A DNA stretch of 58,377 nt from contig NZ_JACYHB010000018.1 of the NCBI RefSeq assembly GCF_014837295.1, positions 1-58,377 on the forward strand. Reading direction: 5' to 3'. This document shows, in pieces, positions 6,368 to 58,202 of this stretch. The DNA comes from Cellulosimicrobium arenosum (lineage in GTDB: Bacteria; Actinomycetota; Actinomycetes; Actinomycetales; Cellulomonadaceae). Below the pieces are notes generated by a model, which saw nothing but the letters and a program-made list of their open reading frames with translations, did not search any database and was not told the DNA's origin. Numbering within the stretch: position 1 is the stretch's first letter; each line of letters starts with the position of its first letter. A program made the position numbers and the translations under genes.

Positions 6368-6420
6368 GGGATGACTCTCCCTACTTCGTCGTAGTGAAGA
6401 CCTGGTGGGATCCAGGAGTG

Positions 6421-6446
6421 CGTAAGCGCTTTCGTAAGCGCTTTCG
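6421..6446. promoter_or_regulatory. Tandem LacI-family operators
   Basis: Two copies of CGTAAGCGCTTTCG overlap head to tail. Each holds the perfect palindrome AAGCGCTT (6424-6431 and 6436-6443) with the central CpG typical of LacI/GalR-family sites; centres are 12 bases apart. The pair lies between the divergent livK and lacI genes, just downstream of the livK -10 box, so bound repressor would block the livK transcript. Autoregulation of the regulator is also likely. Confidence 0.85.
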
Positions 6447-6448
6447 TC

Positions 6449-6478
6449 AGAGTACGCTGTCGGCGGCAGGTGTGGCAA
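6449..6478 (-). promoter_or_regulatory. Promoter of the livK operon
   Basis: On the minus strand a -35 TTGCCA (6473-6478) is separated by 18 bases from a -10 TACTCT (6449-6454). The predicted transcription start falls inside the tandem operators, about 75 bases before the livK start codon. Confidence 0.6.
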
Positions 6479-6543
6479 GCGTCACGTCGTGGTGCGTCGA
6501 GCGATCGGCACGCGAGGACGGAGCACGGGGGATCGGAGCGGGA

Positions 6544-7599
6544 GTGCGTCGAGAAGGTCGTCCGGCACCGGGTCGGGTAGCACCGCGCCTCGTGGACGTG
6601 GCGGAGGAGGCGGGGGTCTCCCTCGCCACGGCGTCGCGCTCGCTCTCGCGCAGCGTCGGCGTGTCCGAGGCGGTCGCGGCGCACGTCCGGGCCGTGGCCG
6701 AACAGCTCGGCTACGTCGCCAACGTGCACGCTCGCACCCTCGCCGGTGGCAGGACGTCCGTCGCAGGCCTGATCGTCTACGAGATCGGCGACCCGTACTT
6801 CGCCGAGATCGCGAGCGGCGTCGTGCGCGTCGCCGGTGAGAACGGCTGGAGCGTGCAGATCGCCCACACCGAGCGCGAGCCGTCCGCGGAGGCGGAACAG
6901 ATCCGGCTCATGCGTGCCCACCGCGTGGGCGCGATCGTCCTCGCGGGATCCGGCTACGTCGATCCGGTCATGGAGCACGAGGCCGGGCGCGAGCTCGCGG
7001 AGTTCGAGGAGGCGGGCGGTCGCGTCGTCGCCGTCGGGCGCCACCACATGCGGTGCGACGCCGTGCTGCCCGACAACGAGGCCGCGGGGGAGACCATCGC
7101 GCAGCACCTGCTCGACCTGGGGCACCGGCGGCTCGCCGTCGCCGCCGGCCCCGCGCACCTGACGACGATCGCCGACCGGCTCCAGGGAATCCGCGCGGCG
7201 GTCGCGAGGTACGGTCTGCCCCCCGACGCGGTGCCCGTGGCCCATGCGCCGTTCACGCGGGAGGGCGGCCGCGACGCGACGCGAGAGCTGCTGGACGCCC
7301 ACCCGGGGACCACCGCCGTGCTCGCGCTCAACGACGCGATGGCGACGGGCGTGCTGTCGCTCCTGCGTGAGCGCGGCGTCTCCGTGCCGCACGGTGTCTC
7401 CGTCACCGGGTTCGACGACATCCAGGTGGCCCAGGACCTCGCGCCCGCGCTCACCACCGTGCGCCTGCCCATGAGCGAGATCGGCGCGGCCGCGCTCGAC
7501 CTGGCGCTCCGGCCGCCCTCGGCGCGACCGCGGCGACGGGCGACGGGGCACGAGCTCGTCGTCCGCGACTCGACGGCGCCCCCGGCTCCCAGGGACTGA
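6544..7599 (+). CDS. LacI/GalR-family transcriptional regulator
   Basis: A 351-residue regulator. The N-terminal helix-turn-helix reads DVAEEAGVSLATASRSLSRS (near residues 17-36), followed by the hinge region and a two-lobed sugar-binding-type domain with the family motif GFDDIQVAQDLAPALTTVRLPM near the C-terminus. The GTG at 6544 is the only start that places the DNA-binding helices near the N-terminus; the open frame further upstream runs through the operators. It is divergent from livK, and the tandem palindromes between them make it the obvious regulator of the transporter operon. A related palindrome ahead of the secreted dehydrogenase gene suggests a small local regulon. Effector unknown, probably a sugar or sugar-derived compound. 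Confidence 0.9.
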   Translation: MRREGRPAPGRVAPRLVDVAEEAGVSLATASRSLSRSVGVSEAVAAHVRAVAEQLGYVANVHARTLAGGRTSVAGLIVYEIGDPYFAEIASGVVRVAGENGWSVQIAHTEREPSAEAEQIRLMRAHRVGAIVLAGSGYVDPVMEHEAGRELAEFEEAGGRVVAVGRHHMRCDAVLPDNEAAGETIAQHLLDLGHRRLAVAAGPAHLTTIADRLQGIRAAVARYGLPPDAVPVAHAPFTREGGRDATRELLDAHPGTTAVLALNDAMATGVLSLLRERGVSVPHGVSVTGFDDIQVAQDLAPALTTVRLPMSEIGAAALDLALRPPSARPRRRATGHELVVRDSTAPPAPRD

Positions 7600-7602
7600 G
7601 CA

Positions 7603-7638
7603 GGCAGGGCGTGCGCGGTCTCCCGCGCACGCCCTGCC
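7603..7638. terminator. Bidirectional terminator hairpin
   Basis: A perfect 15-base inverted repeat (GGCAGGGCGTGCGCG and its complement) with a 6-base loop sits between the stop codons of the convergent lacI and secreted-dehydrogenase genes. There is no U-tract, as is usual for high-GC actinobacterial terminators. Confidence 0.85.
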
Positions 7639-7666
7639 CGGTCGGACGCCCTGCTGCTACCCGCGG

Positions 7667-10600
7667 CTACCCGCAGCTCAGCGGTGCGTGGTCGACCACC
7701 TGCTCGGACGTCACCTCCTGACCGTCCACCGTCGCCGTGGCCGACACCGTGACCGAACCTGCCTCCAGCGCGGCCGAGCGCACGGCGAACGACTGGTAGG
7801 CGTTGCCTCCCGGCGCCACGTCCTCGGCCGTCCGGTCGCCGTACGCGGTCGCGAGGGTCACGTCGGCGGGCACGTCCGACCGGTTCGTCGCACGAACCGC
7901 GAGGTAGGCCTTGCCGGCCAGGCACCGCGGCGAGACGACGACGTCGACCGGGACCTCGCCCGCGTCGTCGGCGGTCGTCACCACGAGGTCACGCATGCTG
8001 CCGACGTTGTCGAACGAGCCGAACCCGACCCGTCCCTCGGCGAACGTGGTGTCGTTCGCGGTCAGGAGCGGGGTGTCGAGCCCGTCGACGTAGACCGCGA
8101 CGTCACCCGAGTCCGCGCAGCGCACGACGCGCACGTCGTGCCACTCCTCGTCGGTGATCGCCGGAGGTGCCCCGACCGTCCCGTCCCACTGGTCGTCGAT
8201 CCGCTCCCGGTCGGCTCCGTCGACCTTGAAGATGCCGTTGTGGGCATAGATCGTGTTGTCCTGCGAGAGGTGGGCGTAGTAGTACTCGGTGTCCGACTGC
8301 CAGCCGAAGACCACGATGACGTCCCGGTTGTTCACGGTCGCGGGCTCGTCGAGCCGTACCTCCGCACTCAGGTCGAAGGACCCGAGCTCGGTCCCCTCGG
8401 TGAGGACGGCGTACTCGAACGGACGGCGGATGCCGTCGTCCGGGTTGTCGCCGGCCTCCGCGAGGACGATCGCGTCACCCGGGAACTCCCACTTGTCGGG
8501 TGTGCGCGGTGCCCAGTGCTCCTGCGCCATGACGTCGCTGATCTGCTCGCCCGCGGGCGAGCAGGACGGTGGCGCCGGCGGTTCGACGGGCTCCGCGCCG
8601 AACAGCGCGTACTGCGCCGAGACCTGCTCCGGCGTCGCCGCCGTGTCGAGGAACATGAGGTCGTCCATGCGTCCGGTGAACGGGTTCGCCTCACGCGTGT
8701 CCTGCGGGAAGCTGCCGCCGATCTTGATCCCGGCCGGGTCGGTCGCCGACGTGGCGCCCGAGCCCCAGGGGTTGGAGGCCGTGTACTCGCCCTCGAGCTC
8801 CTCGCCGTTCATGAAGAGCTTCATCTCCCCGGCGGCGAAGTCGAACGTCGCCGCCAGGTGGACCCACTCGCCCCGCTGCAGGATCTGGTCCCACGGCATG
8901 TCCGCCGCGAACGTCCAGGACCCCCCGCCGTCCACGCGGCGACCGAGGGCGACGACCTTGAGCTCGCCACCGACCGTGATCACCTCGAGGAGCGCGCGCA
9001 CGCCGTGGCCGTCGGAGTCGCCGCTCAGGACGCCGGCGAGGCCGACCGCGTTGTACCGGTCGTCCGGGTTCGTCGTCCCCGAGTTGAGCGCGGGGTGCTC
9101 GCCGGTCGGCTTGAACCAGCCCATGACCGAGGCCTGCTCCGTGGCGGCGAAGGCACCGAGCGAGTCCACGCCGTCGGCGTCGTACACCCCGGCCTTCCAG
9201 TCGTCGTTCGACGACTGCGTCGGGCTCATCTGCTGGGTCTGCAGCGCCTCGTTCGCGCCCGGGTAGGCACGGTCGGCGACCCGCTGCTCCACGCCGCCGT
9301 TGACGAGCATGATGTTCGTGCCGGACCAGCCCTGGTCGGACTCGAGGGTCGGGGAGCCCTCGACGGGGTGGTCGAAGTCGTAGTGGGCCACGAGGTTCGG
9401 CGCGAGCTCCGGCAGGGCGAACGGCGACGACGCGCCGACGCGGTGAGCGCCGGTGACCTTCCAGATCTTCCCGTTCGCCTTCGCGACCAGGTAGAGCTCG
9501 CCGTCCGCGTCGGAGCCGAAGCGCAGGTCGACACGCTGGTCGCCGACCAGCTCCTGGAACGTCGTCTCCGTCCCGTCGGCGAACACCCGCAGGTGCTCGA
9601 TGTCCGCCAGGTCCTCGAGGTCGCCGTCGTTCCGCACCATCTCGTCGGCCTCGGTGCCCAGCACCCAGCCCCGGACGAGGTCGGTGAACAGATAGCGGCC
9701 CTGGAGCTCGGGGATGTCGCCGCGGTAGACGAAGCCGCCGTTGAGCGCGACGCCGGCGTCACCGGTCTGACCGGGGTCGCGGTTGTGGTCGTACGCGGCC
9801 ACGGGATAGGTGAAGCCGTTCTCGGCGTCGTCGGCCGGCAGCGGGAAGATCTGCCGGTTGTCCGCCAGGAACGGGCCCTCGCGCACGGACCAGCCGAAGT
9901 TGTCACCCGGCTCGACGGCGTAGACGGACTCGACCTGCCACTCGCCGATGTGCCCGAGGTACATGGTGTGGTCGCCCTCGGGGTCCCAGCTGATGCGGTG
10001 CGGGTCGCGCATGCCGACGGCGTAGATCTCGGGCAGCGCGCCCGGCTCGTCGAGGAAGGGGTTGTCCGCCGGGATCCCGTACTGCCCGTTGGCGCTGTCG
10101 TCGCCGAGCGGGTCGATGCGCAGGATCGTGCCCTGGGGGGTGGCCAGGTTCTGCGGGTTGCCGTTGCCGACGCCGTTGCCGCCGTCGCCGGCGAGGACGT
10201 ACAGGTTGCCGTAGTCGGCGTCACCCTCCTCGACGGTGGGGTTGAAGGCGATCTGCTGCACGGTGTGCACCCGGCCCGCGAACGGCACGCGCAGGATCTC
10301 GCGGCTCGTGCCCTCGAAGACCTCGGCCGCGGGATCCGTGGCGGTCCACTCGGTGACGACGCTGTGGAAGGCCGTGTTGCCGTACCCCGGGAACGTCGGC
10401 GTGTCCTGGGACAGTGCACTGCCGGCCTCGGTGTGCACCGTGTAGAACTTGCCGTTCTCGGCGAAGTCCGGGTGGAACTCGGCGGAGCCGAGGCCGGTGC
10501 CCAGGCCGGCGCTGTTGTGGAAGTTGTCGATGAACTCCTCGCGGACGTTCAGGTACGGGGTGTGCTCGCCCGTGTCCTTGTCGACCGTGTAGAGGATGTC

Positions 10601-32981: not shown

Positions 32982-34499
32982 TCAGTACGCGAAGGAGAGC
33001 GGGCGGTCGGCCTGGTCGGGGTCGTCGTCACCGGGCGGCTCCTGCGCCTCGGGCGACTCGTCCCGAACCGACAGCGGGACACCTTCGACGGCGTAGCGGC
33101 GCATGAGGGTGAACCACACCGCGGCCAGCGCGCCGTACAGGAGCGTGAACGCGATCATCGAGGTGAGCACCACGCCGGGGCCGACGACCTCGGAGACGCC
33201 GCGTTCCGTGAGCAGGCGGATCTGGTCGATCCCGGTGGGGTTCGGAGCGACGACCCAGGGCTGGCGGCCCATCTCGGTGAAGATCCACCCGAACGAGTTG
33301 GCGAGGAAGGGCATGGGGATCGCGACGAGCGCGAGCCGCGAGAACCACACCTTGTCCGTGACACGGCCGCGTCGGGTGAGCCACAGTGCGGCGAGCGACA
33401 GGGCGATCGACCCCGCGGCCATCCCGATCATGAGGCGGAACGACCAGTAGGTCATCGCGAGGTTCGGGGTGTACGTGACCGGGTCGCCGGCGAGCGTCAC
33501 GTCGCCGTAGCGCTCGGTGTACTCCTGCTGCACGTCCTCGACCCCGGGCAGGTAGCTCTCGGGCCCCGAGAAGTGGCCGGTGCCGAGGTAGCTCGTGAGC
33601 CCGGGGATCTCGATGACGTGGTTCACGCCCTCGCACGAGTTGGACAGGTCCCCGATCGTGAGGATCGAGAAGGGTGCCGACTCCGTGCCCTCGCACAGCG
33701 CCTCCGCGGACGCCATCTTGCCCGGTTGCTGCTGGTACATGATCTTGCCCTGGACGTCTCCGGTGACCGCGACCCCGATCCCGCCGACGAGCATCGCGAC
33801 GACGCCGAGCAGGACCGCCGGCCGGTAGACGTGGCGCGCGAGCTCGACCTTCTCGGCCTCGCGCGTGCGGACCAGCCGGACCATCCACCACGACGCGATG
33901 CCCGCGACGAAGGTGCCGGCCGTGAGGAACGTGGCGGTGATCTGGTGGGGGAACGCGGCGAGCAGCGTGTTGTTGCTCAGCACCGCCCAGATGTCGGTCA
34001 TCTCCGCGCGCCCGGTCTCGGGGTTGTACTCCGCACCGACCGGGTGCTGCATCCACGAGTTGGCGGCGAGGATGAAGAACGCCGAGGCGTTCGTCGCGAT
34101 GGCGACGGCCCAGATGCACGCGAGGTGGACCTTTTTGCTGAGCCGGTCCCAGCCGAAGATCCACAGGCCGAGGAACGTGGACTCGATGAAGAACGCCGCG
34201 AGGGCCTCCATCGCGAGGGGTGCGCCGAAGACGTCACCGACGAAGCGCGAGTACTCGCTCCAGTTCATGCCGAACTGGAACTCCTGCACGATCCCGGTCA
34301 CGACGCCGAGCGCGAAGTTGATGAGCAGCAGCTTGCCGAAGAACTTGGTCAGCCGCAGCCAGCGCTCGTTGCCGGTGCGGACCCATGCGGTCTGCATGAT
34401 CGCGACGAGGGGCGAGAGCCCGATCGTCAGCGGCACGAAGATGAAGTGGTAGACGGTCGTGATGGCGAACTGCCACCGGGCGAGCTCCAGGGCTTCCAC
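32982..34499 (-). CDS. cydA: Cytochrome bd oxidase subunit I
   Basis: A 505-residue heme-bearing subunit. LARWQFAITTVYHFIFVPLTIGLS carries the heme-ligand His, GRQPWVVAPNPTG the quinol-loop motif, and FGMNWSEYSRFVGDVFGAPLAMEAL the conserved helix; the Q-loop is of the short type. Menaquinol is the probable donor in this lineage. GTG 34499 follows GAGGAG seven bases upstream. First gene of cydABDC, below a Rex operator. Confidence 0.96.
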   Translation of the reverse strand: MEALELARWQFAITTVYHFIFVPLTIGLSPLVAIMQTAWVRTGNERWLRLTKFFGKLLLINFALGVVTGIVQEFQFGMNWSEYSRFVGDVFGAPLAMEALAAFFIESTFLGLWIFGWDRLSKKVHLACIWAVAIATNASAFFILAANSWMQHPVGAEYNPETGRAEMTDIWAVLSNNTLLAAFPHQITATFLTAGTFVAGIASWWMVRLVRTREAEKVELARHVYRPAVLLGVVAMLVGGIGVAVTGDVQGKIMYQQQPGKMASAEALCEGTESAPFSILTIGDLSNSCEGVNHVIEIPGLTSYLGTGHFSGPESYLPGVEDVQQEYTERYGDVTLAGDPVTYTPNLAMTYWSFRLMIGMAAGSIALSLAALWLTRRGRVTDKVWFSRLALVAIPMPFLANSFGWIFTEMGRQPWVVAPNPTGIDQIRLLTERGVSEVVGPGVVLTSMIAFTLLYGALAAVWFTLMRRYAVEGVPLSVRDESPEAQEPPGDDDPDQADRPLSFAY

Positions 34500-34623
34500 G
34501 TGCGCTCCTCGGGGGCCGGCAGGGTCGGGACGGACGACGGCGGGCGGTGGGCACGGGAGTACGTGTCCCCCGTCCGACGGTAGGCCCAATCTGCCGTATC
34601 GGCGAGGCGCCCGTGGACCGGGA

Positions 34624-34641
34624 GCGGCGGAAAACCGCCGC
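34624..34641. other. Small hairpin beside the Rex site
   Basis: GCGGCGG-AAAA-CCGCCGC is a perfect 7-base stem with a 4-base loop. It shares its last base with the Rex operator and lies in the predicted cydA leader; it may be a 5' stabilising structure. Confidence 0.6.
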
Positions 34642-34660
34642 TTGTGAGGTTATTCACAAG
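34641..34660. promoter_or_regulatory. Rex (NADH/NAD+ sensor) operator upstream of cydA
   Basis: CTTGTGAGGTTATTCACAAG is a perfect inverted repeat with 7-base arms and a 6-base centre, matching the Rex consensus TTGTGA-N6-TCACAA. Rex represses cydABCD in Streptomyces coelicolor when NADH is low, so the same control is expected. The site is about 145 bases upstream of the cydA start; the cydA -10 probably overlaps it. Confidence 0.9.
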
Positions 34661-35012
34661 TGTTCCGACCCGGCGAGGGCGGCCGGTGGGGCGGGTCCGG
34701 CGACCGGGACCCCGACGCGTGTCGATCGGGTCGACCTGCGCCCCTGTGCGATACTGGTGCGACCTGGCGGGCACCGCATCGCTCGCCGGTGAACACAGCT
34801 CGCAGCCACCGCGGACCGCGGCAGCCGGCGCGCCGCCCCGGGCACGAAGGGACCGGTCGGCAGGCGCCCGTGCCGTCCAAGCGCGCAGCAGCTGTGACCG
34901 ACGACTTCCGTCGCCGGACGACGCGCTGCGGTGCGCTCGTCGCGAGCGACGACCGACCGCCCCGAGGGGCCGCACGGTGCGGGGCGGCTCCTGTGGCACA
35001 GGAGCACGACGC
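34661..35012. other. Non-coding region between cydA and rne
   Basis: The divergent gap is 513 bases in all (34500-35012). Apart from the Rex site and hairpin it contains a possible GATACT -10 at 34750-34755 and the rne ribosome-binding site AGGAG at 35000-35004. No gene is seen: frames here are open but lack homology and a start signal. Confidence 0.6.
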
Positions 35013-38000
35013 GTGACGCTCGACAACACTTCCGACAACACGTCCGCCGCACCCTCGGAAGAGGGCGAGACGACTTCCGGCTCGTCCTCAGGGGCGCGCA
35101 AGACTGCGCGCCGCCGCGCGACGCGCACCGCGGCACCTCCCCAGCCGGTGGTGCTGCCCGGGGTCGTCGACCCCGCCGGCACGGCGCAGCCCGACGGGCC
35201 GGTCGCCCCGGCCGCGGCACCCGAGGCGCAGAGCGCGAACCCCCCGGCCGACGAGCCCGCGGCGGCGAGCAAGCCTCGTCGCGCACGGCGCAGCACCCGC
35301 TCGTCCGGGACGGCGACGGGCGAGGCGTCCGGCGACGCACCCTCCGGCGACACACCCTCTGGCGACACACCCTCTGGCGACGCACCAGCCGGCGCTGCAC
35401 CGACCGGCGGGGAGCCGGCCGAGGCGCCGAGCGATGCGCGCCCCGCTCTCGACGTGCTCTCCGAGCTCGGCCGTCGCGACGAGGCGCCGTCGTCGACGAA
35501 GGCTCGCAGGTCGCGGGCGAAGTCGGTCGCGCTGGACCCGGACGCCTTGCTGGCCGGGGCGGAGGCCGCTCGGCGTGGACAGGCGACCGCTACGGGCGCA
35601 GCGTCGACCGACTCCGCCGAGAAGCCGGAGGACGCGAGCGCCGCCGACGTTCCGGCCCCCAAGAAGCCGCGCGCACGACGCACGACCCGCCGCTCGGCCG
35701 AGGCACCTGCTGAGGTGCCGGCCGAGGTGGCCGTCCCGGGCGAGACCCCGGAGGAGCCGGACCAGGTGACGTCCGAGCCCGCGACGGACTCCGCCACCGC
35801 ACCGAAGAGGCGGGCGGCGTCGACCCGTGCCGGAGCCAAGGGCTCGCGGACGTCGAAGAGCGCGACGACGGAGCCCGCCGACGAGCCGGCGAAGGCCGAC
35901 AAGCGGGAGCGGACCTCGAAGGCGAAGGCACCCGCGGCGGATCAGCGCACCGACGCGTCCGCCGCGGTCGAGCCCGGTGACAAGCCGGCGTCCACGTCGG
36001 GGTCACCCCGGCTCGCGACGACGGCGCTGCTCTTCCAGGCTCCCGATCCCGCGAAGGCCCCGCGGCGCCCTCGCCGTGCCCAGAGCCCTGCGGGCCCGCC
36101 GCGCCACGCCGAGCCCACGGACGCCCCGGAGCAGGTCCCGGCCGCGTCCGACCCGGCGCCGGAGCCGACGACCGCGGCGACGGCGACCGAGCGGCCCGCA
36201 CGGTCCTCGTCCCAGAAGAGCACGGGGACGCGGGCGCGCCGCGGGAAGGCCGGCCGCGCGGCGGGCGCTCCCCAGGAGAGGGCACCCCAGCAGGGACAGC
36301 CTCAGGAGAGCGCGCCTCAGGGCAGCACGCCCCGGGAGAGCACGCCTCGGGCGAGCGAACCGAACGACGTGTCGACGCAGGACGCGCCGCTGACGGGCAC
36401 CGACCTCGCTGCTGCCGAAGAGGTCGAGCTCATCGAGTCCGAGCTGGTCGCCGAGGGCGTCTCGCTCGCGGGCACCACGTTCGGTGCGCAGGACTTCGCG
36501 CCGGACGAGTCAGGATCCGATCTCGGGACCGAGGCGACGGACTCCGTCGACATCGGTGCGGAGGCCGACGAGGACACCGAGGACACCGAGGACGACGGCG
36601 CGCAGCGTCGCCGTCGCCGTCGTCGCGGCGGGCGTGGCCGACGCGGTCGCAACGGTGAGCCCGGTCCGGCCGCCGAGGACGCCTCGGCGAACCAGGGGGA
36701 CGGGCAGCCGAGCACGACGGCGGACACCGCCGACGAGTCCGCCGAGACGTCCTCCGAGGAGGATGCGGGCGCCTCGACCGGGAGCGACGAGGACGGTGAG
36801 GACGGCGGATCGAGCCGTCGCCGCCGGCGTCGTCGGCGCGGGGGGCGCAGCGAGGGCGGCGACACCCGTGGCCGGTCGCGCGAGCGCACGGCCTCGGACG
36901 AGGTCACGGCGCTCAAGGGGTCGACGCGTCTCGAGGCCAAGCGCCAGCGTCGCCGTGAAGGCCGCGACGCAGGGCGCCGCCGTCAGATCATCTCCGAGGC
37001 GGAGTTCCTCGCGCGCCGCGAGGCCGTCGAGCGGGCGATGGTCGTGCGCGAGCAGGACGGGCGCACGCAGATCGCGGTGCTCGAGGACGGGGTGCTCGTC
37101 GAGCACTACGTGTCCCAGCAGTCGCAGGTGTCGATGGCGGGCAACGTCTACCTCGGTCGCGTGCAGAACGTGCTGCCGAGCATGGAGGCCGCGTTCGTCG
37201 ACATCGGCAAGGGCCGCAACGCCGTGCTGTACGCCGGCGAGGTGAACTGGGACGCTGCGGGTCTCCAGGGCCAGCCGCGCCGCATCGAGGACGCGTTGTC
37301 GTCCGGCGACCCCGTCCTCGTGCAGGTCACGAAGGACCCGATCGGGCACAAGGGCGCGCGCCTGACCGCACAGGTCACGCTCGCCGGCCGCTACCTCGTG
37401 CTCGTCCCGGGCGGCGGCATGACAGGCATCAGCCGCAAGCTCCCGGACACCGAGCGCAACCGGCTGAAGAAGATCCTCAAGGAGGTCGTGCCCGACGGCG
37501 CGGGCGTCATCGTCCGCACCGCGGCCGAGGGTGCGAGCGAGGACGAGCTGCGGGCCGACGTCGAGCGCCTGCGCGGTCAGTGGGAGGCCATCGAGACCAA
37601 GGCGAAGAAGTCGTCCAGCGCACCGGTGCTGCTCCAGGGCGAGCCGGACCTCGCGATCCGTGTCGTCCGCGACATCTTCAACGACGACTTCAGCTCGTTG
37701 GTCGTCGAGGGCGGCGATGCGTGGAGCGAGATCTCCTCGTACGTCGAAGAGCTCGCCCCGGACCTGCGCGAGCGCGTGTCCAAGTGGACCGGTACCCAGG
37801 ACGTGTTCACCGTCCACCGCGTGGACGAGCAGCTCGCCAAGGGCATGGACCGCAAGGTCTGGCTGCCGTCAGGTGGGTCGCTCGTCATCGACCGCACCGA
37901 GGCGATGACGGTCGTGGACGTCAACACGGGCAAGTTCACGGGCTCGGGCGGGACGCTCGAGGAGACCGTCACGCGCAACAACCTCGAGGCGGCCGAGGAG

Positions 38001-49750: not shown

Positions 49751-49823
49751 GGGGCTGTGGCGCAGCTGGTAGCGCACCTGCATGGCATGCAGGGGGTCAG
49801 GGGTTCGAGTCCCCTCAGCTCCA
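49751..49823 (+). tRNA. tRNA-Ala (anticodon GGC)
   Basis: A 73-base cloverleaf: acceptor GGGGCTG/CAGCTCC with the G3-U70 wobble that identifies alanine, D arm GCGCAGCTGGTAGCGC, anticodon stem CCTGC/GCAGG with loop ATGGCAT (anticodon GGC), T arm AGGGG-TTCGAGT-CCCCT, discriminator A. The following ACC is a possible partial genomic CCA. Confidence 0.97.
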
Positions 49824-49835
49824 CCGACGTTGCAT

Positions 49836-49874
49836 CACGAAGGACCGTCTCTCGTCGAGAGGCGGTCCTTCGTG
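49836..49874 (+). terminator. tRNA-Ala terminator
   Basis: A long hairpin: CACGAAGGACCG with its complement, a T-G pair, then CTCTC/GAGAG closing a GTC loop, for 18 pairs in total. Confidence 0.88.
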
Positions 49875-50035: not shown

Positions 50036-51292
50036 ATGGAGGTCTTCACGCAGTGGGAATCTGAGATCCGCGGCTACAGCCGTACGTACCCGACGGTGTT
50101 CGCGTCGGCATCGAACGCGCGGCAGGTGGACGAGTCAGGCAAGAGCTACATCGACTTCTTCGCAGGGGCCGGGGTGCTGAACTTCGGCCACAACAATCCC
50201 CGCATGAAGCGGGCCATGATCGACTTCCTCGAGGCCGACGGCGTCGCGCACAGCCTCGACATGGCCACGACGACCAAGCGGGACTTCATCACCGCGTTCG
50301 TCGAGACCGTGCTGCAGCCACGGGACATGACGATGAAGCTGCAGTTCATGGGACCGACCGGGACCAACGCGGTCGAGGCAGCGCTCAAGCTGGCCCGGCG
50401 CGTCACGGGTCGGCGCGACGTCGTCGCGTTCTCCCACGGGTTCCACGGCATGACGCTGGGCTCGCTCGCCCTCACCGCCAACGACGCCTTCCGCCGGGCG
50501 GCAGGGGTGCCGCTCGAGAACGTGGTCCGGCTGCCCTTCGAGACGGCGCCCGGAGGTGGGCTCAAGGCGCTCGAGGACTACCGCGCAGCGCTCTCCGACG
50601 TCTCGAGCGGACATCTCCCGCCGGCGGCCTTCGTCGTCGAGGTGATCCAGGCCGAGGGCGGGGTGAACGTGGCGACCGCCGAGTGGTTGCACGCCGTGCA
50701 GCAGCTCGCGCACGACTACGGAGCCCTGTTCGTCATCGACGAGATCCAGGTCGGCTGTGGTCGGACCGGGAGCTACTTCAGCTTCGACGGCATGGGTCTC
50801 GACCCGGACATCGTGTGTCTCGCCAAGGGCATCGGCGGCTACGGGACGCCGCTGGCCATGAACCTCGTCAAGCCGGAGCACGACGCCCACTGGAAGCCGG
50901 GCGAGCACACCGGGACGTTCCGTGGCCAGGGTCTGTCGTTCGTCGCGGGCCGCGAGGCGCTGACCTACTTCCACGACGACGAGCTGATGACGCAGGTGCG
51001 CACCAAGGGTGAGCGCATCGCGAGCGTGCTGAAGTCCGTCGCGGACGAGACCGACCGCGGGTTCGACGTCCGCGGCCGCGGCATGATCTGGGGACTCGAC
51101 GTCGGCGACGGTGCGATCGCGAAGGCCGCGACGGCGACGTGCTTCGACAACGGCATGCTCATCGGTCCGTGCGGCAGCGGCGGCCGCGTGCTCAAGCTCA
51201 TCCCGCCCCTGACCATCCCCGACGACGACCTGGAGGAGGGGCTGCAGATCCTGACCGAGGCGGTTCGTGGGACGACGCGTCGCACGGTCTGA
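50036..51292 (+). CDS. Diaminobutyrate-2-oxoglutarate-type aminotransferase (EctB-like)
   Basis: A 418-residue class III PLP aminotransferase. The EctB-type N-terminus IRGYSRTYPTVF, the FFAGAGVLNFGHNNP stretch, FVIDEIQVGCGRTG (PLP ring Asp235) and CLAKGIGGYGTPLA (PLP Lys264) are all present. EctB uses it in the synthetic direction; here ectA and ectC are absent and the next genes are catabolic, so a role converting diaminobutyrate to aspartate semialdehyde (as DoeD/Atf) is more likely. It has no ribosome-binding site but a promoter positioned for leaderless transcription. Confidence 0.85.
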   Translation: MEVFTQWESEIRGYSRTYPTVFASASNARQVDESGKSYIDFFAGAGVLNFGHNNPRMKRAMIDFLEADGVAHSLDMATTTKRDFITAFVETVLQPRDMTMKLQFMGPTGTNAVEAALKLARRVTGRRDVVAFSHGFHGMTLGSLALTANDAFRRAAGVPLENVVRLPFETAPGGGLKALEDYRAALSDVSSGHLPPAAFVVEVIQAEGGVNVATAEWLHAVQQLAHDYGALFVIDEIQVGCGRTGSYFSFDGMGLDPDIVCLAKGIGGYGTPLAMNLVKPEHDAHWKPGEHTGTFRGQGLSFVAGREALTYFHDDELMTQVRTKGERIASVLKSVADETDRGFDVRGRGMIWGLDVGDGAIAKAATATCFDNGMLIGPCGSGGRVLKLIPPLTIPDDDLEEGLQILTEAVRGTTRRTV

Positions 51293-51319
51293 CCCACCCA
51301 GCACCACGAGGAGCCAGCC

Positions 51320-52615
51320 ATGAGGCAGCGCGACGACATGACCTTCCCGTTCGCCGAGTACGAGCGGCGGTTGAACGAGCTGCGCCGACGCATGTCGGAC
51401 CGGCTGCTGGACGCGGTGGTCATCACCGACCCCGAGAACCTGATGTACCTCACGGACTACCAGACGACCGGCTACTCCTTCTTCCAGGCTCTCGTGGTGC
51501 CGCTGGAGCAGGAGCCCTTCATGATCACGCGTGCCATGGAGGAGTCGAACGTCGTCGCGCGCACCTGGGTCGAGATGACCCGGCCCTACCCGGACACCGG
51601 CGACGCGATCCAGTCCCTGGTGCAGTCGCTGCGGGAGTTCGGCCTCCACACCAAGGACGTCGGGTACGAGCGCAACAGCTACTACTTCCCCGCCTACCAC
51701 CAGGACTACATCAAGGCCGCCTTCACCGAGGGACGCCTGCTCGACTGCTTCGGCATCGTCGAGGAGGGCCGGATCTGCAAGTCGCCGGCCGAGATCGAGA
51801 TCATGGCCCGCGCGGCGCACGCGACCGAGGTGGGGATGCAGGCCGGCATCGAGGCGTGCGCGCCCGGGGTGTCGGAGAACGACATCGCCGCCGAGATCAG
51901 CGCGGCGATGTTCCGGGCCGGGGGAGAGTTCCCGGCCGTCATGCCGTACGTGACCTCCGGGCCCCGGTCCATGATCGGGCACGCGACGTGGGAGGGCCGG
52001 ATCGTCCAGCCGGGCGAGCACGTGTTCCTCGAGGTGGGCGGGTGCTTCCGGCGCTACCACACGGCGATGATGCGCACGGTGCTCCTCGACGAGCTCTCGC
52101 CCTCGATGCGCCGCGCGCAGGAGCGCATGCGCCTCGCGCTGTCCGAGGTCAAGGCGGCGATCCGTCCGGGTCTGACGGTGTCCGACGCCGACAGCATCGT
52201 GCGCACGATCATCACCGACAACGGGGTGGGCGCCCGGCTCATCACGCGCTCCGGCTACTCGATCGGCATCGCGTTCCCACCCAGCTGGGACGAGGGATAC
52301 ATCGCGAGCCTCAACCAGGGTGACTCGCGCATCCTGCGCGAGGGCATGACCTTCCACATCATCCCGTGGATGTGGGGCGTGGACGGGAACAAGACCGTCG
52401 GCATCTCCGACACCATCCGCGTCACCGACCGCGGGTGCGAGTCGTTCTTCACCCTCGACGAGGACTTCACCTGCAAGCCCGAGCACGGCGTCGGCTCGAG
52501 CTCGGGGCCGGGCCTGGTCGGTGCACCGGTCGTCGACGGGCAGGACCCCGACGACGGGGATCTCGACGAGCCGGGCTATGACGAGCCCACTCCCATCCGG
52601 CACGGCATCGCATGA
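51320..52615 (+). CDS. M24/creatinase-fold ectoine hydrolase-like protein (DoeA/EutD type)
   Basis: A 431-residue two-domain protein: a creatinase N-terminal domain (about 1-150) and an M24 domain. The stretch near 235, EVGGCFRRYHTAMMRT, has Glu and Ala where metallopeptidases keep two metal-binding Asp residues, so it is probably metal-independent, as creatinase and ectoine hydrolase are. The context with an EctB-like aminotransferase and an aldehyde dehydrogenase supports ectoine ring opening to N-acetyl-diaminobutyrate; Xaa-Pro peptidase-like or creatinase activity is the alternative. ATG 51320 follows GAGGAG. Confidence 0.8.
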   Translation: MRQRDDMTFPFAEYERRLNELRRRMSDRLLDAVVITDPENLMYLTDYQTTGYSFFQALVVPLEQEPFMITRAMEESNVVARTWVEMTRPYPDTGDAIQSLVQSLREFGLHTKDVGYERNSYYFPAYHQDYIKAAFTEGRLLDCFGIVEEGRICKSPAEIEIMARAAHATEVGMQAGIEACAPGVSENDIAAEISAAMFRAGGEFPAVMPYVTSGPRSMIGHATWEGRIVQPGEHVFLEVGGCFRRYHTAMMRTVLLDELSPSMRRAQERMRLALSEVKAAIRPGLTVSDADSIVRTIITDNGVGARLITRSGYSIGIAFPPSWDEGYIASLNQGDSRILREGMTFHIIPWMWGVDGNKTVGISDTIRVTDRGCESFFTLDEDFTCKPEHGVGSSSGPGLVGAPVVDGQDPDDGDLDEPGYDEPTPIRHGIA

Positions 52616-52626
52616 AGGAGGCGCCC

Positions 52627-54009
52627 ATGCTCATCGCGACCGACCCCACGACCGGCGAGGTGGTCCGGCAGGTCTCGGCCGCCGGGCCCGAGCAGGTCGA
52701 CGCCGTCCTGTCGTCGGCGACCTCGGCCCAGAGAGCCTGGCAGGACCGCGGACCGGGAGGTCGCGCCGCCGTCCTGCTCGACGTCGCGACCTATCTCCGC
52801 GAGCACGTCGAGGATCTCGCCCCTCTCATGACCGAGGAGATGGGCAAGCCGGCAGGGGAGTCGCGTGGCGAGGTGGTCAAGGCGGCATGGTGCTTCGAGC
52901 ACTACGCGCAGCACGCCGAGGAGTACCTGGCCGACGAGGTCATCGGCTCGGACGCGACCCGCAGCTATGTCCAGTACCTTCCGCTGGGCACGGTCCTGGG
53001 CGTGCTGCCGTGGAACGCACCGTTCTGGCTGTTCTCCCGGTTCGCGGCGCCCGCGCTCATGGCGGGCAACACGTGCGTCATGAAGCACGACCCGCACGTT
53101 CCCGGTTGTGCGCAGGCGATCGGCGAGGTCTTCGCGAAGGTCCTCGCCCAGCACGGGGCGCCTCCCGGCGTCTTCCAGAACCTTCCGCTCGAGACGCCGG
53201 CGGTGGCCGACGTCATCCGGGACCGGCGCGTGCACGCGGTGTCGTTCACCGGGTCGGCCCGGGGTGGGGCCGCGGTCGCGAGCCTCGCGGCGGGAGAGAT
53301 CAAGCCGGCCGTCCTCGAGCTGGGCGGGTCCGACCCGTCGCTCGTCCTGGCGGACGCAGACCTGGACGCCGCTGCGGACACGATCGCGCTCTCGCGCATC
53401 ATCAACGCCGGCCAGTCCTGCATCGCCGCCAAGCGCATCATCGTCGAGGCCCCTGTCTACGACCAGTTCGTCGAGCGGCTGCACGAGCGGCTGGCCCGCC
53501 TCACGGTGGGCGACCCCCGCGAGGCGGGGACCGACGTCGGGCCGATCGCGCGAGCGGACCTTCGTGACGAGCTGCACCGGCAGGTGCGCGAGACCGTCGA
53601 CGCCGGGGCCCGGCTCCTGCTGGGCGGCGAGCTGCCCGACGGCGCGGGCTGGTTCTACCCCGTGACTCTCCTCGCCGACGTGACCAAGGACATGACGGCC
53701 GGGTGCGAGGAGACGTTCGGCCCGGTCATGGTCGTCATGCGTGCTGCCGACGCCGAGGACGCGCTCGCGATCGCGAACGACACCGAGTTCGGCCTGGCCG
53801 CGAGCGTCTGGTCGACGCCGGAGCGCGGAGAGTCGTTCGCCCGGCGGATCGAGGCGGGGCAGGTCAGCGTGAACGGGATCGTCAAGACGGACCCGCGCCT
53901 CCCGAGCGGGGGCATCAAGAGGTCCGGCTACGGGCGCGAGCTCGGCCCCCACGGCATCCGGGAGTTCGTCAACGCCCAGCAGGTGTGGGTCGGCCCCGCC
54001 CGCACGTGA
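52627..54009 (+). CDS. NAD(P)-dependent semialdehyde dehydrogenase (GabD/DoeC/Ssd type)
   Basis: A 460-residue aldehyde dehydrogenase. PWNAPFW and FTGSARGG bind NAD, LELGGSDPS holds the general base Glu231 and GQSCIAAKR the nucleophile Cys265, 34 residues apart as expected. Its short length matches the succinate-semialdehyde group. In this operon aspartate semialdehyde is the probable substrate, giving aspartate. ATG 52627 follows GGAGG by five bases; the ATG at 52612, overlapping the previous stop, is less likely. Confidence 0.88.
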   Translation: MLIATDPTTGEVVRQVSAAGPEQVDAVLSSATSAQRAWQDRGPGGRAAVLLDVATYLREHVEDLAPLMTEEMGKPAGESRGEVVKAAWCFEHYAQHAEEYLADEVIGSDATRSYVQYLPLGTVLGVLPWNAPFWLFSRFAAPALMAGNTCVMKHDPHVPGCAQAIGEVFAKVLAQHGAPPGVFQNLPLETPAVADVIRDRRVHAVSFTGSARGGAAVASLAAGEIKPAVLELGGSDPSLVLADADLDAAADTIALSRIINAGQSCIAAKRIIVEAPVYDQFVERLHERLARLTVGDPREAGTDVGPIARADLRDELHRQVRETVDAGARLLLGGELPDGAGWFYPVTLLADVTKDMTAGCEETFGPVMVVMRAADAEDALAIANDTEFGLAASVWSTPERGESFARRIEAGQVSVNGIVKTDPRLPSGGIKRSGYGRELGPHGIREFVNAQQVWVGPART

Positions 54010-54054: not shown

Positions 54055-54987
54055 TCACGGGACGGTGTACCCGGCGGCACGGAACAGCTCGTACCACTCT
54101 GCGCGGGTCAGCGGCACGTCCGAGCCCTGCGCGGCACCGGCCACGCGCTCCGGGTTCGTCGTGCCGAGCACGACCTGCATCTGCGCCGGGTGGCGGGTGA
54201 TCCACGCGGTCGCGATGGCGATCGGCGGCACGTCGTACTGCGCCGCGAGCCGGTCGATCACGGCGTTCAGCTCGGGGTAGTCGTCCGAGCCGAGGAACAC
54301 GCCGGTGAAGAAGCCGGCCTGGAACGGCGACCACGCCTGGACGGTGATGTCGTGCAGCCGGCAGTAGTCGAGCGTCCCGTTGTCACGGCTGACCGACTGG
54401 TCGAGCCCCTGCATGTTCGAGGCGACGCCCTGCGCGACGAGCGGGGAGTGCGTGATCGACAGCTGGAGCTGGTTCGCGACGATCGGCTGCTCGACGTACC
54501 GGCGCAGGAGCTCGATCTGGCCCGGCGTGTGGTTCGAGACGCCGAAAGCGCGCACCTTGCCCGCGGCGTGCAGGTCGGAGAACGCCCGGGCGACCTCCTC
54601 GGGCTCGACGAGCGCGTCGGGGCGGTGCAGGAGCAGGATGTCGAGGTGGTCGGTGCCGAGCGCGTCGAGCGAGCCGTCCACGGACTCGACGAGGTGGTCG
54701 TAGGAGTAGTCGAAGTACGGGCCGGACGGCACGATGCCCGCCTTGGACTGGATGACCCACTCGTCACGCTCGGCGGGGGAGAGGCGTGTCGCCTCCGCCC
54801 AGCGGCGCTCGCAGCCGTGGAGGTCCTTGCCGTACACGTCGGCGTGGTCGAGGAACGTGATGCCCGCGTCCCGGGCGGTGCGGACGAGGGTGCGGACCTC
54901 GTCGTCGGTCTTGTCCTGGATACGCATGAGGCCGAGCACGACGTTCGGGACCGTGATGTCCGTGCCGGGCAGGGTGAAGGTCTTCAC
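54055..54987 (-). CDS. Aldo/keto reductase (YdhF type)
   Basis: A 310-residue NADPH-dependent oxidoreductase. FLDHADVYG carries the catalytic Asp/Tyr, WVIQSKAGI the Lys, HLDILLLHRPDALVEPEEVA the His, and VLGTTNPERV the NADPH site. GTG 54987 follows AAGGAGAA. Its start lies 46 bases after the second reductase's stop codon, so the two are probably co-transcribed. Confidence 0.92.
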   Translation of the reverse strand: MKTFTLPGTDITVPNVVLGLMRIQDKTDDEVRTLVRTARDAGITFLDHADVYGKDLHGCERRWAEATRLSPAERDEWVIQSKAGIVPSGPYFDYSYDHLVESVDGSLDALGTDHLDILLLHRPDALVEPEEVARAFSDLHAAGKVRAFGVSNHTPGQIELLRRYVEQPIVANQLQLSITHSPLVAQGVASNMQGLDQSVSRDNGTLDYCRLHDITVQAWSPFQAGFFTGVFLGSDDYPELNAVIDRLAAQYDVPPIAIATAWITRHPAQMQVVLGTTNPERVAGAAQGSDVPLTRAEWYELFRAAGYTVP

Positions 54988-55033: not shown

Positions 55034-55894
55034 TCAGACGGCCGAGAGCCGCGCCACCTCGTCGTCGGTCAGGACGAGGTCGGCGGCGCCCGCGGAGTCG
55101 CGGGCGCTCTCCGGGCGCGATGCGCCCGGGATGGGCAGGACGACAGGTGCGAGCGCGAGCTCCCAGGCGAGGACGACCTGGTAGACGCTCACGCCGTGGG
55201 CGTCGGCGACCGCCTGGAACGTGGTGTGTGTCGCCCCGAGCTCGGAGGCGTTCGCGATCCCGCCGAGCGGGCTCCACGGCAGGAACGCCACGCCGAGCGC
55301 GGCGCAGTGCTCGAGCTCGCCCTGGCTCGAGCGGTACCTCGGCGAGAACTGGTTCTGGACGGACACCAGCCGGCCGCCCAGCACCTCGTTGGCCTCGTCG
55401 ATCTGCGCCACGTCCGCGTTCGACACGCCGGCCATCGCGATGACGCCCTCGTCGAGAAGCTCGGCGACCGCGCCGACCGAGTCGGCGTACGGCACCGCGG
55501 GGTCGGGCCGGTGGAGCTGGTAGAGACCGATCGTCTCGACGCCGAGCCGGCGCGCCGACTCCTTCGCGGCCTGCTTGAGGTGGGTGGGATCGCCGTTCTT
55601 GGTCCACGAGCCGTCGCCCGGCCGCAGGAGCCCGCCCTTCGTGGCGACGAGGACGTCGGAGGTGTCGCCACCGTAGGTGCGCAGGCCGCGGGCGATCAGC
55701 TCCTCGTTGTGGCCGAGGTCGTCCGCGTCCCGGTGGTACGCGTCCGCGGTGTCGATCAGGGTGACTCCGGCGTCGAGCGCCGCGTGGATCGTCGCGACGG
55801 ACCGGGCCTCGTCGGGCCGGCCCTCGATCGACATGGGCATGCCGCCGAGCCCGATCGCGGAGACGGTCCGGGTGCCGAGCGTGCGGTGCTGCAT
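55034..55894 (-). CDS. Aldo/keto reductase
   Basis: A 286-residue aldo/keto reductase of a different subgroup. LIDTADAYHRD, VLVATKGG, YQLHRPDPAVP and LPIPGASRPESARD are the catalytic and cofactor stretches. AAAGGAC precedes the ATG at 55894. First gene of a two-reductase unit, divergent from the LysR gene. Confidence 0.92.
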   Translation of the reverse strand: MQHRTLGTRTVSAIGLGGMPMSIEGRPDEARSVATIHAALDAGVTLIDTADAYHRDADDLGHNEELIARGLRTYGGDTSDVLVATKGGLLRPGDGSWTKNGDPTHLKQAAKESARRLGVETIGLYQLHRPDPAVPYADSVGAVAELLDEGVIAMAGVSNADVAQIDEANEVLGGRLVSVQNQFSPRYRSSQGELEHCAALGVAFLPWSPLGGIANASELGATHTTFQAVADAHGVSVYQVVLAWELALAPVVLPIPGASRPESARDSAGAADLVLTDDEVARLSAV

Positions 55895-55992: not shown

Positions 55993-56883
55993 ATGGATCT
56001 TCGTCAGATGGAGTACCTCGTCGCGCTCGCCGACGAGCGGCAGTTCACGCGCGCCGCAGCGCTCACCGGCGTGTCGCAGTCCGGCCTGTCGGCCGCGATC
56101 CGCAACCTCGAGGAGGAGCTGGGCTCGAGCCTCTTCACGCGCACGACCCGTCGCGTCGAGCCGACCGAGGCCGGGCTCGCGCTGCTGCCGCACGCACGCT
56201 CCATGCTCGCCCAGGCCGCCGCAGCTCGCGACGCGGTGGTGCAGGCGACGCGCGAGGTAGCGGGCTCGCTGCACGTCGGTGCCGAGCAGTGCCTGGGCAT
56301 CGTCGACGTCGCGGCCCTGCTCGAGCGCTTCCATCGGAGGTACCCGCTCGTCGAGGTCCACTTCGCCCAGGCCGGTTCGCACGACCTCGTGGAGCGGGTC
56401 CGTTCCGGCGACCTCGACGTCGCGTTCGTCGCGACGACCGAGCACCTCGGTTCGCTCAGCCAGACCGTGCTCGGCAGCGAACCTCTCGTCCTGGTGTGCG
56501 CACCCGAGCACCCGCTCGCCGCGGACGCACGCCTGTCGTGGGCGGACCTCGTCGACGAGGACTTCGTCGACTTCGACCCCACCTGGGGCGCCCGGCCCGT
56601 CAACGACGCCCTGTGCGCGGCCCACGGTGCGCACCGCAACGTGCGCTTCACCGTCAACGACGTCCACACCCTGCTCGACCTCGTCGACCGCGGTCTCGGT
56701 GTCGCGCTGGTGCCGCGCCACGTCGCGGACAAGCCGCAGGCTGCCCGGCTCGCCATGGTCACGCTGCCCGACGGCGAGGCGCCGCGCTGGGTCGTGTCCG
56801 TGGTCACCGGCGGTCGGGACCAGGCCCCGGCCGCTCCGCGTCTGCTCGAGCTCGTGGCCGACGGGCTGCCGGTGGCTTCGTGA
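55993..56883 (+). CDS. LysR-family transcriptional regulator
   Basis: A 296-residue regulator. MDLRQMEYLVALADERQFTRAAALTGVSQSGLSAAIRNLEEELG (N-terminal winged helix) is followed by the effector domain. It probably controls the divergent reductases. ATG 55993 follows AGGA. The effector is unknown. Confidence 0.93.
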   Translation: MDLRQMEYLVALADERQFTRAAALTGVSQSGLSAAIRNLEEELGSSLFTRTTRRVEPTEAGLALLPHARSMLAQAAAARDAVVQATREVAGSLHVGAEQCLGIVDVAALLERFHRRYPLVEVHFAQAGSHDLVERVRSGDLDVAFVATTEHLGSLSQTVLGSEPLVLVCAPEHPLAADARLSWADLVDEDFVDFDPTWGARPVNDALCAAHGAHRNVRFTVNDVHTLLDLVDRGLGVALVPRHVADKPQAARLAMVTLPDGEAPRWVVSVVTGGRDQAPAAPRLLELVADGLPVAS

Positions 56884-58202
56884 CGGGCTCGGGCGGGCCG
56901 CCCCCCGGTGGTTCCACACCGCTCTTCCCGCTGCGCAGCGTCGTCCTCGGGGCGTTCGTCCCCACCCTGGTCATGGAGATCGGGGTCGGTGCGATGCTCC
57001 CGGTCGTCGCCGTCGCGGCGACGGGGCGGGGTGCGAGCCTGACGGTCGCGGGACTGGTGGCGGCGCTCATCCCCATCGGCAAGATCCTGTTCGACCTGCC
57101 GGCGGGCTCCCTCGCGACCCGGCTGGGCGATCGCACCGCGATGCTCATCGCCGGCATGGTCGCGGTCGCGGCGTACACCACGGTGGCGCTCACCGACGCC
57201 CTGTGGGGCCTCGCTGCCGGGGTGCTCGTGCTGGGTGCGTCGACCGCGGTGTTCAACCTCGCGCGCCAGGCGTACCTGACGGAGATCACGCCTCCGCTGC
57301 GGCGCGCTCGCGTGCTCTCGACGCTCGCCGGCGTGCACCGCATCGGTCTCTTCATCGGGCCGTTCGCCGGCGCGGCGGTGATCGCGGTGAGCTCGGTCGA
57401 GGGCGCCTACTGGCTCGGAGCCGGCGCGGCGCTCGTCTCGGTCGTGATCATCGCCGTCGTGCCCCCGGAACGCCCGTCGCCCACGGCCGGCACGTCGACC
57501 CCGGCCGGCGCGTCGACCACGCCCGACGGGCGGCCGGTGCGACCCGCCCGTGCGCGGGCGAGCATCACGCGCGTCGCACGCGAGCACCGGCGCCTGTTCG
57601 CCACGCTGGGCGTCGCGATCCTCCTGGTGGCCGCGGTACGCGGTGCGCGGCAGACCGTGATCCCGCTGTGGGGCGAGCACCTCGGTCTCGACGCCGAGGT
57701 GACGTCGTTGGTCTTCGGTGTCGCCGGCGCACTCGACATGCTGCTGTTCTACCCGGCGGGCAAGATCATGGACCGCTTCGGGCGGCTGTGGGTCGCGATC
57801 CCGTCGATGCTCACCATGTCGCTCGCCCTCGCCCTGGTGCCGTTCACCGACACCGCGCCGTCGCTGGCCGTCGTCGCGGCCCTGCTCGGGGTGGGCAACG
57901 GCATGGGATCGGGGATCATCATGACCCTCGGGGCCGACGTCGCACCCGCGGACGTGCGCCCCACGTTCCTCAGCGTGTGGCGACTCTTCCAGGATACCGG
58001 CGACGCGCTCGGACCGCTGGTGCTGTCCGCGGGCGCGGCACTCGGCTCGCTCGCCGCCGGGATCTGGGCGGCAGCGGCGCTGGGCGGGGCGGCCGCGGGA
58101 GCGCTCCGGCGCTGGGTGCCCCGCTACTCCGAGCTCGCCGACCTGGTGGTCCGCCGCGGCCCCCGCCGAAAAGGTCTGGGTCGGTCCGCGACGCGCGGTT
58201 AG
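56880..58202 (+). CDS. Major facilitator superfamily transporter
   Basis: A 440-residue, twelve-helix exporter-like protein. The GDRTAM loop after helix 2-3 replaces the usual MFS motif A (GxLaDrxGrr), and a 35-residue Pro/Thr/Ala loop links the two halves. GTG 56880 overlaps the lysR stop. Probably co-regulated with the reductases; substrate unknown. Confidence 0.9.
   Translation: MTGSGGPPPGGSTPLFPLRSVVLGAFVPTLVMEIGVGAMLPVVAVAATGRGASLTVAGLVAALIPIGKILFDLPAGSLATRLGDRTAMLIAGMVAVAAYTTVALTDALWGLAAGVLVLGASTAVFNLARQAYLTEITPPLRRARVLSTLAGVHRIGLFIGPFAGAAVIAVSSVEGAYWLGAGAALVSVVIIAVVPPERPSPTAGTSTPAGASTTPDGRPVRPARARASITRVAREHRRLFATLGVAILLVAAVRGARQTVIPLWGEHLGLDAEVTSLVFGVAGALDMLLFYPAGKIMDRFGRLWVAIPSMLTMSLALALVPFTDTAPSLAVVAALLGVGNGMGSGIIMTLGADVAPADVRPTFLSVWRLFQDTGDALGPLVLSAGAALGSLAAGIWAAAALGGAAAGALRRWVPRYSELADLVVRRGPRRKGLGRSATRG

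Follow-up and report, generated by a model that had tools for sequence, protein, structure and literature searches.

The window analysed here comprises positions 1 to 58,377 of contig NZ_JACYHB010000018.1 of Cellulosimicrobium arenosum, and our subject is a set of three genes at 50036..54009 within it, which we name doeD, doeA and doeC (Table 1). Only 27 nucleotides separate doeD from doeA, and doeA overlaps doeC by 4; since all three open reading frames also lie on the + strand, they are laid out as a single operon. They follow the published doeB-doeD-doeA-doeC arrangement, minus doeB. A first-pass annotation of the sequence had described a three-gene operon here without a deacetylase gene, resembling atf-eutD-ssd of ectoine catabolism. 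Reading-frame layout, family scores and neighbours confirm such an operon, and the resemblance stands. A scan for promoters and terminators detected neither a promoter-like site nor a terminator on the + strand, a result of little weight given the high GC content.

Table 1. Operon genes and surrounding features, with positions in the window
Feature	Position	Strand	Best-supporting match or remark
doeD: L-2,4-diaminobutyrate--2-oxoglutarate transaminase, 418 amino acids	50036..51292	+	NF006733, 598.2 bits (cut-off 438)
doeA: ectoine hydrolase, DoeA_2 type, M24 family, 431 amino acids	51320..52615	+	NF038259, 768.5 bits (cut-off 575)
doeC: semialdehyde dehydrogenase, 465 amino acids	52612..54009	+	PF00171, 448 bits
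tRNA-Ala (GGC)	49751..49825	+	upstream landmark, outside operon
aldo-keto-reductase-like gene	54055-54987	-	downstream of operon
aldo-keto-reductase-like gene	55034-55894	-	downstream of operon
LysR-type regulator	55993-56883	+	
major-facilitator-like transporter	about 56900-58202	+	

DoeA passes the curated DoeA_2 ectoine-hydrolase model and covers it completely (model positions 1-386 of 386). It reached 185.9 bits against the classic EutD/DoeA model TIGR02993, where the cut-off is 613, and is thus not of that subfamily, which corrects the first-pass description of an EutD-like M24 protein. PF00557 scored 131.8 bits, and the best sequence matches among solved structures were 6twk/6twj, ectoine hydrolase DoeA. 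According to the structure-match alignments, residues E238, A249, Y313, I348 and S363 stand at the five metal-ligand positions of prolidase, which we take to be D209, D220, H284, E313 and E327, and Halomonas DoeA likewise lacks the prolidase ligand set. Because these positions are replaced, as they are in Halomonas DoeA, metallopeptidase function is unlikely for the window protein. Replacement of the peptidase metal ligands is presumably a DoeA feature, one outside the NF038259 model. Beyond the 386 model positions DoeA carries an acidic C-terminal tail (residues 387-431, window 52478-52615), and match ends suggest that it varies among relatives.

The other two proteins belong to broader families. 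DoeD belongs to the class III transaminases, in the diaminobutyrate group, and scores 526.3 bits against the EctB equivalog TIGR02407, under its cut-off of 552.2; it is 45% identical to the EctB of the same genome and shares 77% identity with DoeD from the doeB2-containing operon L078. For DoeC, the best of the 25 NCBIfam families listed were succinate-semialdehyde dehydrogenase-like, with none above cut-off, and succinate-semialdehyde dehydrogenases were also its best matches among solved structures.

The established pathway, in the sections at hand of PMC3187862 and PMC5924519, has four enzyme steps in the order DoeA, deacetylase, DoeD, DoeC, and mutants of doeA and doeB in Methylomicrobium alcaliphilum support the assigned roles (PMC7192451, in excerpt). 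We think it quite probable that doeD-doeA-doeC is an ectoine-degradation operon of the doeBDAC type minus doeB, with deacetylation left to an unlinked enzyme. DoeA would open the ectoine ring by hydrolysis to give N-alpha-acetyl-diaminobutyrate, an enzyme encoded elsewhere would take off the acetyl group, DoeD would transaminate the resulting diaminobutyrate to aspartate semialdehyde, and DoeC would oxidise the latter to aspartate. The gamma isomer of acetyl-diaminobutyrate can be turned back into ectoine by EctC. The operon would most likely serve to run down ectoine that the cell itself has made, for instance after a drop in salinity. We infer each reaction, the oxidation by DoeC among them, as well as the ectoine source and the unlinked deacetylase, from sequence.

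Genes for making ectoine are present in this genome. EctA (151.4 bits, cut-off 120.6), EctB (632.2, cut-off 552.2) and ectoine synthase (196.2, cut-off 128) all passed their models, and ectABC lie together on another contig, C28, at about 33892-36440. The reported absence of ectA and ectC is therefore true of the window and not of the genome. For a wider view we took a sample of 150 genomes of the window's family and counted DoeA_2 over its curated cut-off, which identified 24 holders, including one of 17 genomes in the window's genus. Ectoine synthase (EctC) exceeded its cut-off in 40 of the 150 (42 match at E ≤ 0.001; the 40 are counted), comprising all 24 DoeA_2 genomes vs 16 of the 126 without DoeA_2 (Fisher p 1.6e-17).

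Relatedness inflates the Fisher test, so EctC was also shuffled within the five genera holding DoeA_2 (65 genomes, with genus lists taken from match listings); not one of 20000 shuffles gave an overlap as large as the real one. Two of these genera carry the signal: EctC was found in 13/13 genomes with DoeA_2 vs 0/2 without, and in 3/3 vs 0/13. Two others were non-significant (3/3 vs 7/10, and 1/1 vs 7/16 in the window's own genus), and in the fifth every genome has both DoeA_2 and EctC.

These results bear on what the operon acts upon. Conceivably the three enzymes merely resemble ectoine genes and have some other substrate, for instance another cyclic amidine or a diamino acid: M24 proteins and transaminases form broad families, DoeD stays under the EctB equivalog cut-off, and DoeC stays under those of all 25 families listed. 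We consider this very improbable, as DoeA passes a curated ectoine-hydrolase model, ectoine synthase accompanies every DoeA_2 genome in a pattern upheld by within-genus shuffling, and the same three genes sit in operons with doeB2. The same three observations speak against the earlier proposal of a different route on a related diamino compound. The substrate is most likely ectoine itself, as judged from these family assignments and co-occurrences.

Since the operon tracks ectoine synthase and the genome has ectABC, the ectoine degraded is probably the cell's own pool. Tracking of ectoine production by the operon has been reported for methylotrophs (PMC7192451, in part). Ectoine from outside may be a source as well, given matches to two kinds of transporter: EhuB, matched in all 24 DoeA_2 genomes and over cut-off in 13, this one narrowly (193.3 vs 190.9), and BCCT transporters, over cut-off in all 24, with three in this genome. 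Here both kinds lie away from the operon. The first-pass annotation noted that eutE/doeB, uptake genes and enuR are absent from the window; the EhuB-like protein and the three BCCT transporters are found elsewhere in the genome. At locus L059 (G125:C424), from a genome in the same genus as Actinotalea sp. C106, a BCCT transporter match at 6986-8455 adjoins doeB2 (5517-6674); it is a possible ectoine importer.

The trio keeps its arrangement in every DoeA_2 genome of the family sample. All 23 of the other DoeA_2 genomes in the family have the three genes in the same order, which argues that the arrangement is not due to chance. We also collected the best 80 of 270 relatives as named loci, a set that leans towards the window's type and overlaps the 23 family genomes; once identical loci were removed, 90 distinct DoeA loci remained, the window included. 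The order was the same in 80 of 80 named loci, the last gene being cut by a contig end in a few. They include Isoptericola, Krasilnikoviella, Myceligenerans, Actinotalea and one Microbacterium, along with many Gammaproteobacteria (Methylophaga, Hahella, Wenzhouxiangella, Natronospirillum). A DoeB2-like gene lies directly upstream of doeD on the same strand in 63 of the 80, with at most 480 bases between matched stretches. Of the 17 that lack doeB2, 14 come from Isoptericola (for example I. halotolerans, L077), Krasilnikoviella or Myceligenerans, one from Microbacterium sp. MPKO10 (L075) and two from Natronospirillum (L083 and L086). One genome also encodes a second, distant DoeA-like protein (L060, G054:C42:548598-549707; 221.3 bits to DoeA_2, 32% identical to window DoeA), with no doeD or doeC match in the 15 kb taken around it.

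Two families of deacetylase are known for this pathway. Classic DoeB (TIGR02994) had no match at E ≤ 0.001 in this genome or in any of the 24 DoeA_2 genomes; the model was run on no genome known to hold classic DoeB, and it picked up relatives at 70-101 bits elsewhere. DoeB2 (NF038260, ectoine_DoeB_2) exceeded its cut-off of 550 bits in three of the 150 family genomes, all bearing DoeA_2 and each with the gene directly upstream of doeD; two of these three loci were scored directly, at 599.8 and 582.4 bits. At E ≤ 0.001 the DoeB2 model matched nothing in the two Natronospirillum genomes, one of them a metagenome-assembled genome (MAG), and in Microbacterium L075 it gave only a match below cut-off (223.7 bits). 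For classic DoeB, the Natronospirillum pair and Microbacterium yielded distant relatives alone (69.7-100.9 bits, cut-off 402.7).

The first-pass annotation had proposed searching the rest of the genome for ectABC and for a deacetylase of a DoeB type that it took to be M20. Such a search recovered ectABC and no deacetylase over its model's cut-off, the best DoeB2 match reaching 218.9 bits. The class assignment was mistaken for classic DoeB, which belongs to the succinylglutamate desuccinylase/aspartoacylase group (PMC3187862, in the sections at hand); it is DoeB2 that M20-type models match. This genome has seven M20 matches, six of them over the Pfam cut-off. Five of the seven were scored as fragments, and one passes the model for succinyl-diaminopimelate desuccinylase (DapE). 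Two candidate solutions were rejected: an unrecognised DoeB2, the two nearest M20 amidohydrolases sharing just 61 and 52 of 99 near-invariant DoeB2 positions (conservation of 97% or more across 65 DoeB2 sequences), and a deacetylase beside ectABC, none being noticed by eye among the neighbours of those genes in this genome.

The acetyl group might be disposed of by transfer. N-alpha-acetyl-diaminobutyrate is a homologue of N-acetylornithine with one carbon fewer, and by chemical analogy the ornithine acetyltransferase ArgJ could move the acetyl group from it to glutamate, making a hydrolytic deacetylase needless. Among the best families listed for the five of seven M20 proteins scanned as fragments, no acetylornithine deacetylase model was over cut-off, in keeping with this route. 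We nevertheless regard it as quite unlikely.

How loci without doeB arose was examined in FastTree trees of DoeA, DoeD and DoeC, built from 90, 90 and 87 distinct loci. In each tree the doeB-less loci form the same three monophyletic groups, namely the window group (20 loci), a second actinobacterial group (3) and Natronospirillum (2). The sister of the second actinobacterial group is a set of three loci with doeB2, and any clade that takes in every doeB-less locus has at least 57, 55 and 50 tips (DoeA, DoeD and DoeC), many of them doeB2-bearing. Three losses of doeB2 would be the simplest account of these trees. In those of DoeA and DoeD the window group is nearest to a doeB2-bearing locus from a MAG labelled Salinisphaerales (support 0.947 and 0.267), which might fit acquisition from Gammaproteobacteria; contrary to this, the DoeC tree joins the window group to other actinobacteria (0.944). 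The doeB-less trio of Microbacterium sp. MPKO10 falls inside the window's clade, which suggests transfer of the trio between actinobacteria.

We asked which residues changed together with loss of doeB2, counting positions where the same residue predominates in at least two of the three lineages lacking doeB and occurs in fewer than 10% of doeB2-bearing loci. Such positions numbered 8 each in DoeD and DoeA, and 10 in DoeC. Of 300 control clade triples, 97 reached the DoeD count and 51 the DoeC count; only 9 reached that of DoeA (control mean 2.8). DoeD and DoeC are thus unremarkable, and DoeA is set apart to a modest degree. The DoeA positions are 110, 113, 114, 122, 192, 204, 275 and 332; three of these (122, 192 and 332) show 92-95% conservation among loci with doeB2. 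These changes may reflect altered DoeA function or lost contact with DoeB, and they have no direct bearing on the specificity of DoeD or DoeC.

That three separate lineages keep the trio while known deacetylases score under cut-off could instead mean that the acetyl group stays on through the later steps. DoeD would then transaminate N-alpha-acetyl-diaminobutyrate at its terminal amine, which should be free in the N-alpha-acetyl isomer, and DoeC would produce N-acetylaspartate, to be cleaved last or excreted. ArgD, which transaminates N-acetylornithine, provides a model for such a reaction. We find this route unlikely. Shared changes in DoeD and DoeC are no commoner than in controls, and there is no sign of an aspartoacylase-type finisher, the DoeB model having matched none of the 24 genomes even though it picks up weak relatives elsewhere; moreover, Halomonas elongata deacetylates before transamination (PMC3187862, in the portion available).

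Several results weigh against our preferred reading of a doeBDAC-type operon served by an unlinked deacetylase. By these models, 21 of the 24 genomes with DoeA_2, the present one among them, lack both known deacetylase families. The two M20 proteins nearest DoeB2, encoded on contigs C3 and C12, reach only 207.1 and 218.9 bits and retain 52 and 61, respectively, of the 99 near-invariant positions. Comparable sub-cut-off M20 matches turn up in 148 of the 150 family genomes whether or not doeA is present, so they single out no specific substitute. A doeB deletion leaves H. elongata unable to use ectoine (PMC3187862, in excerpt), which implies that a substitute deacetylase is not automatically at hand. 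The DoeA excess of changes shared by doeB-less lineages is a further hint, from control triples that overlap one another. At the level of known families, as far as sequence models can tell, the absence of a deacetylase is real. It is doubtful, all the same, that ectoine-making actinobacteria break down ectoine with no dedicated deacetylase, via N-acetylaspartate or ArgJ, having repeatedly lost doeB2 while DoeA changed in parallel. That an unlinked general hydrolase removes the acetyl group is most likely; encoding of the missing step elsewhere, one of two options in the first-pass annotation, remains the best reading, with no specific enzyme found.

No deacetylase gene was found among the operon's neighbours (tRNA-Ala, a phosphatase-like gene, two aldo-keto-reductase-like genes and the LysR gene), nor were ectoine uptake genes or an EnuR/AsnC regulator of the eut/ehu/ueh type. 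Upstream of tRNA-Ala lies a histidine phosphatase-like gene, a name that, like nadD and rsfS, was assigned by eye. All 16 genus mates have this tRNA-Ala directly behind the corresponding upstream gene, and in none of the 16 does the stretch taken behind this landmark contain the trio. Among eight other trio loci checked, three, all from the genus that includes Isoptericola, have the trio 2.0-3.4 kb behind the same tRNA-Ala. Retention of the landmark in all mates and the trio behind it in these three suggest an old shared location, with losses in the window's genus.

A long, near-perfect hairpin seen by eye at about 49836-49874, between tRNA-Ala and doeD, may terminate the tRNA transcript. Ten of the 16 genus mates have the first aldo-keto-reductase gene behind the landmark (the stretch taken was about 9 kb for most, and two contigs were shorter), and for this reason the aldo-keto-reductase/LysR group looks like a resident neighbour outside the ectoine pathway. 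Six of the other 23 family loci, L043 and L054 among them, have major-facilitator-like proteins upstream of doeD that by eye resemble the window transporter.

A set of actinobacteria with ectoine synthase keeps three genes of the pathway without either known form of the fourth. The gap is well defined: what takes off the acetyl group, or how cells do without its removal, is directly testable, and the answer matters for how the ectoine pool is reset after salt stress and for the engineering of ectoine-overproducing strains.

We found no description of a D-A-C operon without doeB2 in this family in the literature searched, as far as the texts at hand extend. A 2026 survey (PMC13188858, in part) reports putative eutE-less clusters from Bacillota and Thermodesulfobacteriota. 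They have ectoine-hydrolase genes and no classic deacetylase, as in the window, and differ in their other gene content; the term Promicromonospor is absent from the accessible text of that survey. The doeABXCD cluster of Halomonas elongata and the eutDE-ssd-atf cluster of Ruegeria pomeroyi encode equivalent enzyme steps and a hydrolase related in sequence to window DoeA, though of the other, TIGR02993 subfamily. Both clusters also hold classic DoeB/EutE and regulator genes (PMC7192451 and PMC13188858, in excerpt), whereas none lie beside the window operon. The doeBDAC operons of Methylomicrobium alcaliphilum and Methylophaga have a DoeA_2-type hydrolase and the same D-A-C order. In the nine Methylophaga loci of our set the three genes are adjacent and DoeA is 72-77% identical to that of the window. 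There doeB2 stands upstream of doeD, where the window has none. The doeB-less operon is a recurrent variant of a known pathway.

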